Shown here one piece after another: positions 2,563-49,619 of a stretch of DNA of 64,000 nucleotides. Within the stretch, counting starts at the first letter, position 1, and each line of letters begins with the position of its first letter. The stretch lies in contig WHVA01000132.1 in assembly GCA_015179125.1 (NCBI GenBank), forward strand, positions 62,001 through 126,000. Reading direction: 5' to 3'. The notes under the pieces are model-generated. The model was not told the DNA's origin. It saw only the letters and a program-made list of their open reading frames with translations, and searched no databases. A program made the position numbers and the translations under genes. This DNA is from Gautieria morchelliformis (lineage: Eukaryota; Basidiomycota; Agaricomycetes; Gomphales; Gomphaceae).

Positions 2563-5500
2563 TCACCTCCCTAAGTGAATAAATGGGACCCATCGCTTGA
2601 ATGAAACCCCTTCGGCTCGTAACTTGGCAACAGCGACATGGAGGGCTCGGGCAGCCTGAGTGGTATCCGGTCGAAAAGTGTCTTCCGCGTTAGAAGAACT
2701 GTTATCTCTAAAGAGATATTCATAGAACGCGTCCGCAACCTTGGGACCATCCTCATCGAAAATGGTCCTGCAAATGGTCAGACACTAGACCTTGAGCCGA
2801 CTTAGTGGACTCACCACATAGTCCCAACGACTCCCCGAAAGCCGGCATATAACAAGGTCGACGCAAGATGGATCACTTCATCGGGAAGATTTCCATCGCC
2901 TGTCGCAGTCTTGCACGCGCTGAGAAATGCCAGTGTTCCATTCGGAATGGGTTGTTGCATTATTTGAGAGACCTTCAGCGGATTGTCATGAAGCATTAAT
3001 GCACTATCAAGTGGTCTCTCTGGATGTTGTTCCCCATGGCAAGCGAAGTGAGCAATGGATGTGGTCGGCAGATGCGAAACGACCTCCTTCACAGTTGCAG
3101 ACTCCAGTTTAACTAACTTACCGGCCGGCACACGGGCCTCGATTCGCCTCAGTTCATCGACAGTACATGGAAGTGCTACTTGGCCAGGTGTGAACGGTTC
3201 GACGACAACCATCATCTTAGACGAGCTGTGGGGTAGGGACGTGTCGCTGAGAAGGCTACTGATCGTTGGCGTGTACGAGGAAACCACGTAGTCGGAAATG
3301 CATTCCGGTGTTTTGAGATATATTCCTGCAGCGTGTATTGGAAGGAACGAGAATGGACCTGTGGGGCACCACCACAAGTTCGGTGGTGCATCAGATTTCT
3401 GCAAACACTCGTAAACTCGAGGCAACGACGATGTTCGCTGGGAACGACCAACTCACCTCCAAAGCCAGTGACTGGATGACAGGCTTAACCACTGACCTCC
3501 ACAATACAGCCAAAACCGTTTGGAGGTCGTCTGTCTGTCCGCCGAATTTGGCTCGTGCCATTACTCGGCTCTCCGAAGTGTGCCGCAACAACTGTAGGGT
3601 GTTAAAAGGGAGCATCTGTTCAAGACCCTCTACATGAGCACGTATAGACGCAGACAGGGCCGGATCTCGACTGCCTGACGCAGTGGCAAGTTGTATGCAG
3701 TTCACAAGCGCCGTCACATCAGCTAAAACCAACACCAGTGGCACATGCTGAACGCCACTTGAAGTTAATATTAATCCGTCGCAACCGGTGTTGCTCGCAT
3801 TGAGGATGACCACCGGTCCTTCGGTTGCCGCAGGCAGCAGTGTGGAGAGTCGTCGCGGGCGCAAGAAATCCTCAAAGCCTTCCAGCTGGCGCACTTCTTC
3901 AATAACCATCAACCACTCGTCATTGAGACGACGGAAATGAGATGCCTCGCGCTCCATTGACACCGCTTTTTGTGAGCAATCAGACATATCCCTTGACACA
4001 TCTCGAAGAGAGCCCTGTTCAAGCGTGAGAGAGATGCGCCTTAGTCTTTGCTCAAGCTCCGGCGCCACATCACGGAGGTCAGACATCGGTGTACGTAGTT
4101 GCATAGCCTGCGACCAAAACACTGCACGGCCTTCTTCAAGCAGCTCAACTGCCCTCTCATACTGACCCATTCGAATTGCGCAAGCTGCGGCGTCACGAGC
4201 CAAGCCGTCGCTACCAGATGTCAAGGCACGATGGCGAGATGGCAAATCCAGGCCAAGCATCGCCAGGCGGGGAAGAAGCTGAATCGCTATATAGTACGCG
4301 TCCAAGGCTGATTCATGCCTCGAATCGGCATGCGTTGCCCATAACTTGGCAATACGGAGACGTTGAGATGCAGATGCAGTTTCGCATGTCGCTGCAGCCC
4401 GAAAGGCATCCATGGCATCCTGCAAATACATCGCCTTATCGCTGTGGGTGTATGCCGCCATGAATGCAACGCCCAGGTTACCTGAAAAAAAGCACGCTGA
4501 GGGGTGGCCTGCGACAAGTGCATTTTGGGATTGAGATAATGCATCGATAGCCTCCTCCAAGTCCTCCCATCGACCCAATTGCCCGAATCGTGCACATAGC
4601 GCGGTAGCAAGGTTGTTGAAGGACAAGGGCCGGTCGGGATGGGGTGCAGGTCGCAGCTCGAGTGCGTCTCGACCCAATGAAATTGCCGCTTCTAAGTCTG
4701 CAAGTTGACCCGACTGTTCAAACCGTGTCTTTAGCGCCAATGCCAAGTTGTCGAAAAGGGTCGCTCGTGCAGGATGGGGTGCAGCTCGCAGCTCGAGTGC
4801 TTCTCTGTGGAATGAAATTGCCGCCTCCAAGTCTTGGTGTTGAGCCGACTGTCCAAATCGTGTCGATAGCGCGAGAGCGAGGTTGTTGAGGGAGTCGGGT
4901 CGATCAGGGTGGGATGCAGGTCGCAGCTCGAGCGCCTCCTGGTGTAAAGAAATTGTCGCTTCTAAGTCTTCCCGTTGACCCGACTGTCGATATCGTGCTG
5001 AGAGCGCGGACGCGAGATTGTTGAGGTAGGTGGCTCGTGCAGGATGGGGGGCAGCTCGCAGCTCGAGTGCTTGTCGGTTCAATGAAATTTCTTCCTCCAA
5101 GTCTTCATGTAGACCTGACTGTTCAAACCGTGTCGATAGCGCGAGGGCGAGATTGCTAAGGGAGACGGGTCGATCAGGATGGGGTGCAGCCCGCAGCTCG
5201 AGTGCCTCCCGGTGAAATGAAATTGCGTCCTCCAAGTCTTCGAGTCGACCCGACCGTTCAAACCGTGTCCATAGAAATGAGGCGAGGTTGCTGAAGGACA
5301 TGGCTCGATTAACATGGGATGCCGGGAGGATCTCGACTGCTTGTCGGTTCAATGAAATTGCTGTCTCCAAGTCTTGAAGTTGACCTGACTGGTCAAAGCG
5401 TGTCGATAATGCGTCGGCGAGGTTGAGGAGGGAAACGGGTCGATCATGATGGGGGGTAGGTCGCAGCTCAAGTGCCTCTTGGTGCAGTGAAATAACCGCC

Positions 5501-44340: not shown

Positions 44341-44829
44341 GATAAAGGCTGCCTCGATGCTGATTGATAAGGCTAATGCTGCGACCGAGGCTACCACCCT
44401 ACTATCACAACAGATATCTGAAGCCACAGCTATGGCCCTGCTTGAAATCAAGGCGGCATCCTCAGCGGTCACCAGCTCAGCCACTCAACTCTCCGAGACC
44501 ACTACCTCCTACAAAGACGCCGCGACAAGGCTGTCACCCTCGCACCCTTGTCCGCCCCAGGGACAAAACCCACCGACACCTTAAATGTATGTACGATTCT
44601 GAGCCAGGGAAGGTATCAAACTCAGGCAGATACTGGTTGATGCTATAGCCCCTGGAGTGCAGCTGCTTAGCGGTGTGGATAACGTGGGCTTAGCAAAAGC
44701 AGCTAACGAAGCTATATGCACTTTGGATGGCCCAACGGAGTGTAAGGTGGTCTGCGCCAGGCGGCTGAACAATGGAGGGGTCAGAACACTGAGTGTGGTA
44801 GCGCGAAAGGAAACGATATTGACAGTATT

Positions 44830-44936
44830 TATAGCTCACGAGGCAGCGAAGAAGAGGGAAAAAAGAGAGAATACGTGTATTACATAACGGCAATACGGGT
44901 GGATACATCGGTCAGGTAAGGGGGCAGCCCTACCCT
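44830..44936. repeat. Short repeat flanking the copia relic (left)
   Basis: Sequence from tagctcacgaggcagcgaag to cagccctaccct resembles 49125-49215 (cgctcacctaatagcgaaga ... cagccaccct), including gtcggtcaggtaagg. The two lie on opposite sides of the copia relic in the same orientation, so part of this was probably a direct repeat before the copia insertion. Confidence 0.6.
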
Positions 44937-45165
44937 TATAGGTCGAAGTAGAATAATAGTCCGGGGTAGATTCAATGTCTAGCAGCGACCTTCAGTCGCT
45001 GCCTTAAATACATAGAAGCCGGTACTAATTATAAGTCGTTCCTTTGTCTATTCTACCTTGTTCTCTTTTTCCCTTGTTCCTCCTACCCGTTCCTCCTTTG
45101 TCTATATACGCGAGTGTGACGCGTCAGCGCACCAAAGTGCCGCCCGGGATCCCCAGATCCCAACA
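44937..45165 (-). repeat. Copia LTR, 3' copy
   Basis: 229 bp, matching 48807-49035 at about 98 percent. On the minus strand it begins TGTTGGGATCTGGGGATCC. Confidence 0.9.
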
Positions 45166-45739
45166 CTCCCCCTCACTTCGGTGAGTCCTAACCCTTCGCA
45201 CATACCCGTGTTGATGCCACTCCAATCATTTCACCATCAAATCCGCGAGACCTTCCTTCGACCTGGCATAAGTTTAGCGAAGCCTCGTTAGAGGCCGCTT
45301 TCTCGCAGATCAAGTGGTACTTGGCCTTTGTCATAGGTATTGCTACCGTGTGCTGGTTCATTGAACTCCAAGCAATAGACCCTCCAATTTCTTTCCATGC
45401 TATCGTGACCGACTGGTCCACATGGAACCCCTTTTCGGGCAATGGCGGTCGCGATGGAGGGCGTGTCTCCACATGTGCCTCGTTGGTTCCCAGCTTCGCC
45501 TGCACCTCTCCCACTGCTTTATTGTCCCTCTTGGGTACCTCGTCCAGCATCGCGTTGTCTACCCTCCACCCGTCCGTCATCCCATCCCACATGATCTCGA
45601 TCCACGAATACTGGCTCGATGCCGGGTCCTGCGCCGAGTATTGGAAGTTGCACAGCATGTCGAACTTGTTGGATCTGCCACATACCAGGCTCCGCCATGT
45701 GTAGTTGTTCGCCGACGACAGAGGCAGCAGCAGCAGCGC

Positions 45740-46085
45740 CGTCCCCGGCAGCAGTCCAGGAAAACCAGCCGCAAGTTCGCGTGCATTGAGTGCGTCGTGT
45801 ACCCGAGGTTCGTTGGTGACGCCTTCACCTTGAACATGTCCAGCCCCTTGGGCACCACCACATGCAGCGTAAAGTTCGTCCCAAAGTCCGTCACCGTCCC
45901 AAGCCTCGTGTGCATCAGCCAGGACAGCCACTCCACCCGGTACTCCATCGGGAACTTGCGCAGCGTCCAGTTCGTGTTCGGGATGCTCCCCATGATCATG
46001 ATGTTCCCGTTTGGCGTCAGCATCACGACCGAGTGGTACAGCCACGTGCCCCAGCCCGCTCATTTTCTCATGCAGGTACCGGGCA
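45740..46085 (-). pseudogene. Glyoxal-oxidase-like gene fragment in copia relic
   Basis: Between the copia protease and the RNase H-like end, the minus strand encodes TWLYHSVVMLTPNGNIMIMG, then FPMEYRVEWLS, TDFGTNFTLHVVVPKGLDMF and NLGYTTHSMHANLRLVFL. This is the C-terminal region of fungal glyoxal oxidase (copper radical oxidase, AA5): YHS holds the Tyr-His copper ligand pair and THSMHAN the second His region. Only this portion is present and it is decayed; further downstream similarity fades within about 60 codons. It lies in the same orientation as the copia parts. The source gene is not in this window. It is either a captured host gene fragment or a piece inserted later. Confidence 0.75.
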
Positions 46086-47263
46086 TCTTGCAATAGTTGG
46101 TCTTTCACTTCCTGGCTGCCCAGCTCGATCTTACCATACTCCTTCGACAGTTGGTGGTTAATTGTCGTAGCCATGTGTGGACCCGCCGCTGCTTGCACTG
46201 CCACTCCCCCTGGCTGTTGCTTGTGTGCCGTATGTTCCTCCCCCTCGAGCACAGCCGTCCTCTCATTGTTCCCTGTCCCTCGGCATGTAATTTGATACAT
46301 AGGTCCCACCTTTTGGCCAATTCCAAAGATAGTTCCAATTCTTGATTTGAATGTAACACCTGATGATGTAAACATAGCCGTGTGTCCGATATCAGTAAGG
46401 CGTCCTATACTGATGACGTTGTTGGGGGCGTCAGGTGCATATTTTACATCGTGGAGTTTGACTGTGAATATGTCGGTTCCGACCATAAATTCTAGAGGCA
46501 CTGTTCCTCGTCCATGGGTTATAAGGGAAGTGCCTGGTGTGATACCATCGATTTCAGAATGTTCCGCCGTGTAAGTTGAAAAATTATCTCGGTTGCGAGT
46601 TATGTGTGTGGTTGCGGCTGAGTCGGCAAGCCAGTCTGATGCCAAATTAGAGATGAGAGCCGTGCGATCAGCCATGAACGCAAAATCTTTTACTTCAGCT
46701 TGCTTAACAGTGTCATTCTCCTTTGATTTATACCACGTGGGTGCCTGGCCTTCTTTGCCTCCACCTTTTGCCCAACAGTCTTTTACGTAGTGCCCTAGTT
46801 TTCCACAGTTATGGCACTTTCCCTTCGTGGCTCCTGAGTCATCACGTGACTGAGTCCGAAGAACCGTCTGTCGGCCCGATGCTGCGTGTCGGGCTCGATC
46901 TTCGTCCAGGATCCTGGCTATCAGGACATCCGACGATATTGCAACACCGCTGGCGTTGACCGTGGTGACAAATGAGGACCAAGATTCCGGCAATGAGGTA
47001 AGTAGCGTACTTGAAAAATCGGCATCTGTAATCAATTGACCACGGGCATTTAGTTCCTGTCTGAGTCCTCGAAGCTTTCGAACGTGTTCCTCCATGTTGG
47101 CGCCGTCCTTGGCAAAGGTACGAAAGAAGTCGCGGCGGAGATTGACGATGCCGACGGCTCCTTTAGACTCAAATATGCCCTGTAGCCTAGTCCAGATAGC
47201 ATTGCTTGTCATAGATTGATCAATATAAACCAGGTGTTCATCAGATATACGCAAGCAAATTTC

Positions 47264-48506
47264 TGTCAAGATTGGTTTTTAGGCGTTAATATCGTGTATT
47301 AGTGAACACGGCAAATGCCCGAATAACTTGTGCGAATAAGTATGCCGTTCGGCGAATAGATGAACCAATGAATTTTCACGAGGTAAGAGGGTTTCCCGAA
47401 CGGGGCTCACCCTATCTACAGTCGTAGCGAAATAGCCCGTGGCACTTGACGATGTAACGTGCAAGGCCTCACGGAAGGGCTGTCTAAGTCTCGACAATCC
47501 CTTCGCCAACAGCACAGAAAATGGTTCGAAGGCTAAGGTAACGAAGATGAAGTATGAGAACTCACCAGTGATGCCTACGTCCTCTGCTAGTCGAAGATGG
47601 AAATCTCCAAGAGAAGGCTTAAGACGATGACCACAGCGAGGTCAAATTTGCACAAGATGAATGACGTATGATAATTGAACTGGGGAATATACATGCGAAT
47701 GTAAACTACTTATATCGAATGCTCGTAAGGCATCAGCGAATAGGAAAGAGGCCGTCGCGAACCAGGGTTGGATAGGGGTGCGCAGTCATGATACTAAGCA
47801 GATGGAATAAACATACAATAGAGTGAGGGAAGGGTGCGAACATGAAACGACGGAGAGTAAAGGTGGTGAAGGCATTCATGAACAAAACCATGTCTTGGGA
47901 CCCGCATACATGCTACCCTGCACGGACTCTTCGTCTACTGGGTTGATCCCGCACGACCTACGGAAGGGACGTCCTGCGAACACACTTTGGCCATATGAAC
48001 ACCCAAAGGGGTTGGATTAAGAAGGTGATGGGGTTAGTGATGAACCATCTTGCCGGGTAAATGGTATTGATTGTTCTTTGATGGCGTGCCTGCTGGTGAA
48101 ATGCGCGAGCAGAGAATAGCGGTTTGGAAAAATGCAAGGAATGGCGAACAGGAATGACATAGGGGAGAAGTGGTTGAAGTGGAGGACAAAGCCGAGCGAA
48201 CATGGGAGAGGAGTGGCGAAAGGGGAAATGGGGATAACAAGGTCCAGGAAATACACAAGTCCTGACAGTCCGATCATAGGAACACCATCGAAAGAAGGTT
48301 GAGCAGAGGAGGTGATAGGCCCAGTGATGACTGCTAAGTTAGTTCAGGGACGTAGATCGTGCTTCGACGGCGTGGCCATGGTAAATGGCGCGAACAGCGA
48401 GGATCGGCTTCCGAACATGGCAAGGGCAGTCGGAACGAACACAAAGGTGGGGTGAGAAAATAGGAGAACTGAGCATCTGAGTATGGGAAATAAACGCGTC
48501 ATGACA
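47264..48506. mobile_element. LTR-like element X, copy 2 (fossil)
   Basis: 1243 bp beginning TGTCAAGATTGG and ending TCATGACA, flanked on both sides by ATTTC (47259-47263 and 48507-48511), a 5-bp target duplication. It is inserted in the gag of the copia relic. TG...CA ends, a 5-bp duplication and lack of genes mark it as a solo LTR. Copy 1 is at 31436-32457. Confidence 0.85.
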
Positions 48507-48806
48507 ATTTCCTTCCTTGCCTTCTTGTCCTTTTTCTTCCATTCAGCGATCGCCTGTCTCTCTGCCACTGTTATTCTCCTTGGATCGGCCCGTTCCGGTT
48601 CTGCCTCGGTGCTGCTGGTCACATCCCAAAGTTCTTGGTCATCCAAGATCCATTCAAGGCGGCGGCGCCATGCAGCATAGTTGTCCCCATTCAGCGGGTC
48701 AACTCTGTATGTATTAACTGTGCCGGCAAGAGACATTGTTGGTCGATTTGTTACTGATGTAGAAGTTCGATATAATAGATATTAGTTACGGCCGGGGCCC
48801 ATAACC

Positions 48807-49035
48807 TATAGGTCGAAGTAGAATAATAGTCCGGGGTAGATTCAATGTCTAGCAGTGACCTTCAGTCGCTGCCTTAAATACATAGAAGCCGGTACTAATT
48901 ATAAGTCATTCCTTTGTCTATTCTACCTTGTTCTCTTTTTCCCTTGTTCCTCCTACCCGTTCCTCCTTTGTCTATATACGTGAGTGTGACGCGTCAGCGC
49001 ACCGAAGTGCCGCCCAGGATCCCCAGATCCCAACA
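48807..49035 (-). repeat. Copia LTR, 5' copy
   Basis: 229 bp, pair of 44937-45165. It lies upstream of gag on the minus strand. Confidence 0.9.
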
Positions 49036-49040
49036 ACCCT

Positions 49041-49619
49041 CAGGCTGAGAGAGAGACTGTACCGAAGGACATTGCACGGTCAGCGTATTACCAGGTGAGA
49101 ATTCACTTCATCGCTCACCTAATAGCGAAGAAGGAGAAAAATGAGAACATGAGTGTGTTAATGGCACATGCACAAGAAATTTGATATGTCGGTCAGGTAA
49201 GGCCGCAGCCACCCTTAGCTGCTGAGAAAGATATCGCATCGAGTGTCATTCCATGGTATGAGCATCCCAAGTGCAAATTGACCCAGTGAGAAGGCGGTGA
49301 AAGACTAGGGCTCAGCGCTGCACCGTATACGTGTACAGCCGTACATTGTACGGTGGCATTACGGCCTCATCCGTACCGTATGTTGGGCTGCTAGAACCCC
49401 GAAGGTACGCGTTGCAGTACCAGTTCATCGGGTCTTTCAGAAAGACCCGATGAGCACTAGTGACTGCAACCGACCCACATCCCTATTTCGCCCTGGAGGG
49501 ATGATGACATAAGCGGCATCCGAGAATTCTGAGAATTCGGTACCAACATCTTTGCGGATGATTCAGCGGGTTGTTTTTCCCATGGGGGATTGCCACACAG
49601 AATTATCCCCAACACAACC
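49041..49619. other. Spacer between copia relic and copy C
   Basis: No gene. It contains the short repeat at 49125-49215 related to 44830-44936, and a strong hairpin at 49425-49453. Confidence 0.5.
49425..49453. repeat. Perfect 13-bp hairpin
   Basis: TCATCGGGTCTTT, loop CAG, AAAGACCCGATGA. A perfect stem with a 3-nt loop in otherwise featureless DNA. Confidence 0.95.

Follow-up and report, generated by a model that had tools for sequence, protein, structure and literature searches.

A copia-related Gag-protease element in Gautieria morchelliformis carries intron-free pieces of two host genes between its LTRs

We describe an LTR element of Gautieria morchelliformis in which the slot for integrase and reverse transcriptase (RT) holds pieces of two host genes, VPS54 and a glyoxal-oxidase-like gene (GLOX), arranged VPS54/GLOX/VPS54. 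The element very probably belongs to a non-autonomous Gag-protease copia lineage that has acquired pieces of host mRNA by template switching. The chimera is present in several independent insertions with target duplications, its source genes were found, their introns are lost from it, and the scanned copies contain no integrase or RT. The element lies on the minus strand of the window, by which we mean the whole 64,000-nucleotide stretch analysed, and its features are listed below in window positions.

44932..44936, no strand: target-site duplication ACCCT, left copy (flank reading)
44937..49035, minus strand: copia-type LTR element, Gag-protease (paired LTRs, target duplication ACCCT, gag match)
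44937..45165, minus strand: 3' LTR, 229 nt (97.8% to the 5' LTR)
45188..47269, minus strand: open frame of 693 aa spanning gag-protease, VPS54, GLOX and tail
45190..45379, minus strand: short RNase H-like copia pol tail before the 3' LTR (translation likeness)
45380..45549, minus strand: captured VPS54 piece 2
45538..45750, minus strand: captured GLOX-like piece A, whose source position is upstream of B-C
45751..46041, minus strand: captured GLOX-like piece B-C, a join of two late exons that lacks the 52-bp intron
46042..46167, minus strand: captured VPS54 piece 1, two joined exons without the intron
46185..47263, minus strand: remainder of gag, zinc knuckle and protease region (Pfam matches)
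47264..48506, no strand: nested 1,243-bp repeat, solo-LTR-like, with TG...CA ends and an ATTTC duplication on both sides
48507..48736, minus strand: first part of gag (DUF4219, start of Retrotran_gag_2), interrupted by the nested insertion
48807..49035, minus strand: 5' LTR, 229 nt (TGTTGGG start and CCTATA end in element orientation)
49036..49040, no strand: target-site duplication ACCCT, right copy (flank reading)

In element coordinates (p = 49036 minus the window position) the order is gag-protease to ~2851, VPS54 at 2869-2994, GLOX B-C at 2995-3285, GLOX A at 3286-3498 and VPS54 again at 3487-3656, followed by the RNase H-like tail and the LTR. We class the element as copia-related by the similarity of its gag and protease: the gag matches the copia gag family PF14223 (E 4e-24, and E 6e-35 in the capture-free relative C134) and the protease region is a Pol_BBD match. 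No Pfam match to integrase or RT was found in three ORFs of the window copy, nor in the ORFs of the copy on C36 or of C134, and with gag present and no RT or integrase domain match the element has the make-up of a gag-only (TR-GAG-like) element. The RNase H-like tail likewise gave no Pfam match; a similar tail is present in C134. In the copies read the LTRs end in TG...TA, whereas the usual ends in Ty1/copia elements are TG...CA; the target duplications fit the TG...TA ends, which therefore seem to be a family trait. The 4.1-kb span is not wholly copia, since gag is split by a separate repeat of 1,243 bp that is flanked by a duplication of its own and has removed the gag start from the 693-aa frame of the window copy. 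This repeat has at least 37 other near-full-length matches at 85-94% identity among the best 40 of 4,268 candidates scored, and it is missing at this gag site in the copies on C257 and C36.

The original prediction, made from the letters of the window, had recognised the intact LTRs and ACCCT duplication correctly, and had described about 350 bp of a copper radical oxidase gene lying between protease and RNase H-like sequence in place of integrase and RT. The oxidase similarity is real, with both GLOX parts 88% identical (gaps excluded) to a gene on contig C113 which comprises a 570-aa ORF and a further, last exon and has a Glyoxal_oxid_N domain (PF07250, E 5e-25); the window fragment itself matches the Pfam family GO-like_E_set at E 1.4e-4, below Pfam's cut-off. 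The slot was also placed correctly, but the GLOX portion is larger, ~500 bp (46041-45538) in two blocks whose order is inverted relative to the source gene: block A lies upstream of B-C on C113, so the element's blocks are in permuted order. The RNase H-like sequence is there, but merely as a short tail, and GLOX was an incomplete account of the load, since VPS54 sequence borders it on both sides (46167-46042 and 45549-45380). These two parts are 90% and 80% identical to a source locus on C159, gaps again excluded. A Vps54 domain (E 6e-27) lies there in the immediately preceding ORF, which runs in the same direction; the captured exons themselves gave no Pfam match and are named via the DNA match to this locus. 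The second VPS54 piece comes from the same source exon as the end of the first, 225 nt further on, and overlaps the end of GLOX A in ~12 nt of homology. Loss of the source introns was a check that the prediction had itself proposed. At the exon joints the pieces lack precisely the 52-bp GLOX intron (GT...AG) and the intron of VPS54, and the templates were therefore spliced mRNAs. The suggested link to wood decay was not supported. The two permuted pieces, ~500 bp in total, do not make up a complete glyoxal oxidase (AA5) catalytic domain, B-C is read outside its native frame within the long ORF, and we rejected a peroxide-supplying function because the piece is partial and permuted.

Ten places in the assembly (1,113 contigs, 122 Mb) matched the GLOX stretch, and all ten were scored as candidates: seven element copies (the window and those on C36, C257, C399, C682, C770 and C906, the last with block A only in part), two GLOX-like genes (on C113 and on C352, the latter named by DNA likeness alone) and the VPS54 gene. 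Target duplications flank all five copies in which both ends were read, every one different (in element orientation AGGGT in the window, GTTAG on C682, GAGAA on C257, AATAC on C399 and, with one mismatch, GTAAC/GTAGC on C36). The LTR pairs of the five copies differ at 5/229 positions in the window copy, at 7/239 (plus 11 gap columns) and 6/240 in two others, at 2/271 (plus 23 gap columns) in C257 and at 0/225 in C399, whose LTRs are identical. A 66-bp deletion between ACGAAC repeats marks C257, C399, C682 and C770 as a subfamily. An all-against-all comparison of the flanks found few shared stretches (parts of the C36, C257 and C906 flanks are 82-90% alike at non-matching positions, and the flanks downstream of C770 and C682 are 73% alike) and none at the identity expected for two alleles of one insertion. 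The five different target duplications, together with the identical LTRs of one copy, indicate that the load was transposed repeatedly and until recently. Host gene pieces thus lie inside the LTRs and move with the element, in the manner of the maize element Bs1, and the predicted capture before transposition is supported by the six further copies with GLOX sequence.

The capture is not confined to these two genes. Between gag and the VPS54/GLOX part, the copy on C682 contains pieces from three further loci (C391, C177 and C815; all five candidates scored), and so holds pieces from five source loci in one copy. The C391 source is coiled-coil-like by eye and has a paralogue on C793, and the C815 source matches a PH domain at E 4e-4, below Pfam's cut-off. 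The gag search returned 42 match rows, from which, beyond the carriers, the best-scoring six relatives without VPS54/GLOX were read downstream of gag; in all, the protease-to-3' LTR slot of the gag clade was read at 13 loci, including a few that were covered partially. Among relatives without VPS54/GLOX, the best five match the window element at 85-86% as far as window position 46185, and none matches beyond it. Four of the six (C134, C487, C415 and C825) have an RT/RH remnant in the slot, which in C825 is interrupted by a young repeat; the other two are C1026, with repeats, and C382, with other captured pieces in the same slot (one from C193 and two from C504, 92-97% identical to their sources). 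The C504 source is an ABC transporter gene (PF00005, E 2e-25). The C193 source (C193:362520-362920) has no Pfam match and is low-copy and coding-like, and may be either a host gene or a rare transposon. The captured frames in C382 gave no Pfam match and are named by DNA match to their source loci. C825 and C1026 were rejected as further captures because their slots contain repeated elements; the young repeat in C825 (L062 360-1500) occurs in at least 40 places, its own included, at 96-100% identity. As the capture-free relatives have only a remnant in the slot, the loss of integrase and RT probably preceded capture.

All six introns in the spanned source stretches, counted on gene structures read by hand, are absent from the captured pieces, as expected of pieces that derive from RNA. 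Three of them (GLOX, VPS54 and the first PH intron) are gone exactly at the joint; the other three, including the second PH intron and the C391 intron, were lost within larger gaps, where splicing is not proved as the cause. Short homology marks part of the junctions: 5 of 12 scored p < 0.05 against random pairs (Fisher 1.8e-5), for example with nine identical bases at C391/C177 and ten of twelve at GLOX/VPS54, and the remaining seven have no significant homology across the join. On the gag side this test used the relative C134 in place of the true parent, and junction J3 was scored 3 nt out of register. Taken together, the short homologies, the intron loss, the confinement to the LTRs and the returns to the same template (VPS54-GLOX-VPS54) fit template switching. 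A circular RNA template for the permuted GLOX was rejected, as the C/A join does not fall at source splice sites.

Intron loss alone would be compatible with pieces that entered resident copies later, as separate processed pseudogenes inserted, for instance, by a LINE. We regard this as scarcely credible for the VPS54-GLOX part, where independent insertions carry the same chimera with identical junctions at different sites and the pieces are fused to one another in permuted order. The original prediction had named two signs that would point to such later insertion, the fragment being missing from all other copies of the element and a duplication around it. Neither was seen: four further copies carry the fragment within target duplications unlike that of the window, and by eye the fragment edges have no duplication or poly-A tail, the GLOX edges instead continuing into VPS54 sequence common to the copies. 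The additions in C682 and C382, each present in a single copy, may have been separate later insertions. Capture at the DNA level, by break repair or ectopic recombination with the introns lost through chance deletions, draws on the fact that DNA repair also yields short junction homologies and on the three introns lost inside larger deletions, but three introns gone exactly at their GT/AG boundaries, with none of the six retained, make it very improbable. We consider it just as improbable that a chimera already existed in the host, as a trans-spliced or fused VPS54-GLOX gene or transcript, and was captured in a single jump. VPS54 does lie on both sides, as though GLOX sat within a VPS54 transcript, but no VPS54-GLOX chimeric locus was found outside elements among all ten candidate places scored, and C682 and C382 have further joins within elements.

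The chimeric open frame raises the question of whether it encodes a selected Gag-host fusion protein or is passive cargo. At 8 of 12 junctions the native frame is kept on both sides (binomial 0.019, the only part of this test that was computed, frame status having been assigned by hand from translations), and 9 of 12 indels relative to the sources are multiples of three once the introns in the C391 and C504 gaps, whose bounds were read by eye, are set aside; the three exceptions are two in C193 and one at the C177 edge. The source genes are themselves constrained to indels of three, however, and GLOX B-C is in a foreign frame that is also open in the source gene. Variable sites per codon position (49/39/61) show no significant departure from evenness (p 0.087), and the pairwise dN/dS values for the captured portion are mixed, at 0.25-1.1 (from a separate gag table plus the capture rows, with the gag/PR rows of C257, C399 and C770 set aside because frameshifts and truncations mix frames there). 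Much of the 693-aa frame is still open in the other carriers, but it is broken by frameshifts or stops in several. A selected fusion protein is on this evidence unlikely, and we treat the captured pieces as cargo and the production of any Gag-fusion protein as putative. We hold the wider reading, of a recurrent exon-shuffling lineage whose Gag particles regularly take up host mRNAs and yield in-frame Gag-host fusions, some of them selected, to be doubtful to the same degree.

Under the favoured reading, a non-autonomous lineage switching between templates, we infer host mRNA packaging, a strand-transfer step and a helper. Host mRNAs would have been packaged together with the element RNA, and an RT supplied in trans would have jumped, partly at short homologies, from the element RNA to VPS54 mRNA, to GLOX mRNA (twice), back to VPS54 and finally to the element RNA, the two jumps on the GLOX mRNA giving the permuted order. 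Such a chimera would have retained the LTRs and 5' signals and could then have been mobilised in trans to new sites, where the descendant C682 would have gained pieces of three further loci and the relative C382 would have captured others in the same slot. Because no scanned ORF from the window copy, C36 or C134 matches integrase or RT, the enzyme must come from elsewhere. A candidate helper that could move the element in trans is on C461, where an LTR 94% alike lies ~760 bp from an RT domain whose matched part is stop-free; among the best 150 of 2,723 RT candidates scored, further RT domains lie downstream in the gag relatives C154, C178 and C693.

Retroviruses and plants already offer examples of host-gene capture by LTR elements. 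Bs1 of maize is not known to have an RT of its own. It is the closest case to ours in that host gene pieces were joined as a chimera within an LTR element; a review describes pieces of three unrelated host genes forming a chimeric gene (PMC13317346). Ours differs in being a copia element in a fungal genome whose load includes a host gene in permuted order; several copies have transposed, one has gained further pieces and a relative has captured others. Retroviral oncogene transduction and mRNA capture by yeast Ty1 likewise bring spliced host mRNA into an LTR element through template switching, frequently at the expense of pol; the present case is a record left naturally in a genome, in which a single copy combines as many as five source loci. 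TR-GAG elements, LTR elements with gag only, share the LTRs, the gag and the lack of RT and integrase, and would need a helper; they have been described in plants, and ours has captured host exons. The fungal literature, in the titles, abstract openings and passages available, offers chimeric retrogenes made by LINEs, and gene capture by Helitrons and by one other DNA transposon. In Magnaporthe grisea several transcripts were joined by template switching (PMC2104539), as in our element, but by LINE machinery, from non-coding RNA and TEs as templates, and not between LTRs. Pleurotus ostreatus has Helitrons that carry genes (PMC4289320) and Pyrenophora shows hAT transduplication (PMC3538342), so that fungal transposons with host genes or gene pieces are on record; these are DNA transposons, and the absent introns of our element show an RNA route. 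The fungal literature also includes a screen of TE-host fusions (PMC10799480) and a TE survey (PMC4905642). No fungal LTR element with spliced host genes was found among the open-access titles, abstract beginnings and passages, a weak sign of novelty.

The assembly preserves a natural series, from a capture-free relative through two-gene carriers to a carrier of five source loci, with other captures in a relative. Because it also contains the source loci, the steps of RNA-level exon shuffling can be followed from one junction to the next. The element illustrates exon shuffling in that spliced pieces of host genes were joined inside it and carried to new places, and as one carrier (C399) has identical LTRs, capture and transposition may still be ongoing.

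Three further observations concern sequence change and context. All five mismatches of the window LTR pair are transitions, as are all 20 of the 20 LTR-LTR mismatches in the window, C36, C682 and C257 copies, and differences from the source genes are often CpG changes (12 of 25 between the window copy's GLOX A and its source, for example); together these may be read as methylation-linked or RIP-like decay. The window copy looks mosaic, which suggests recombination between subfamilies: in gag C257 is the nearer (94%, against 86% for C36), and in the captured 3' part C36 (92%, against 85% for C257). Similar short stretches flank the element at 44828-44929 and 49107-49210 (71% and 86%), and may represent an older repeat within which the element landed.
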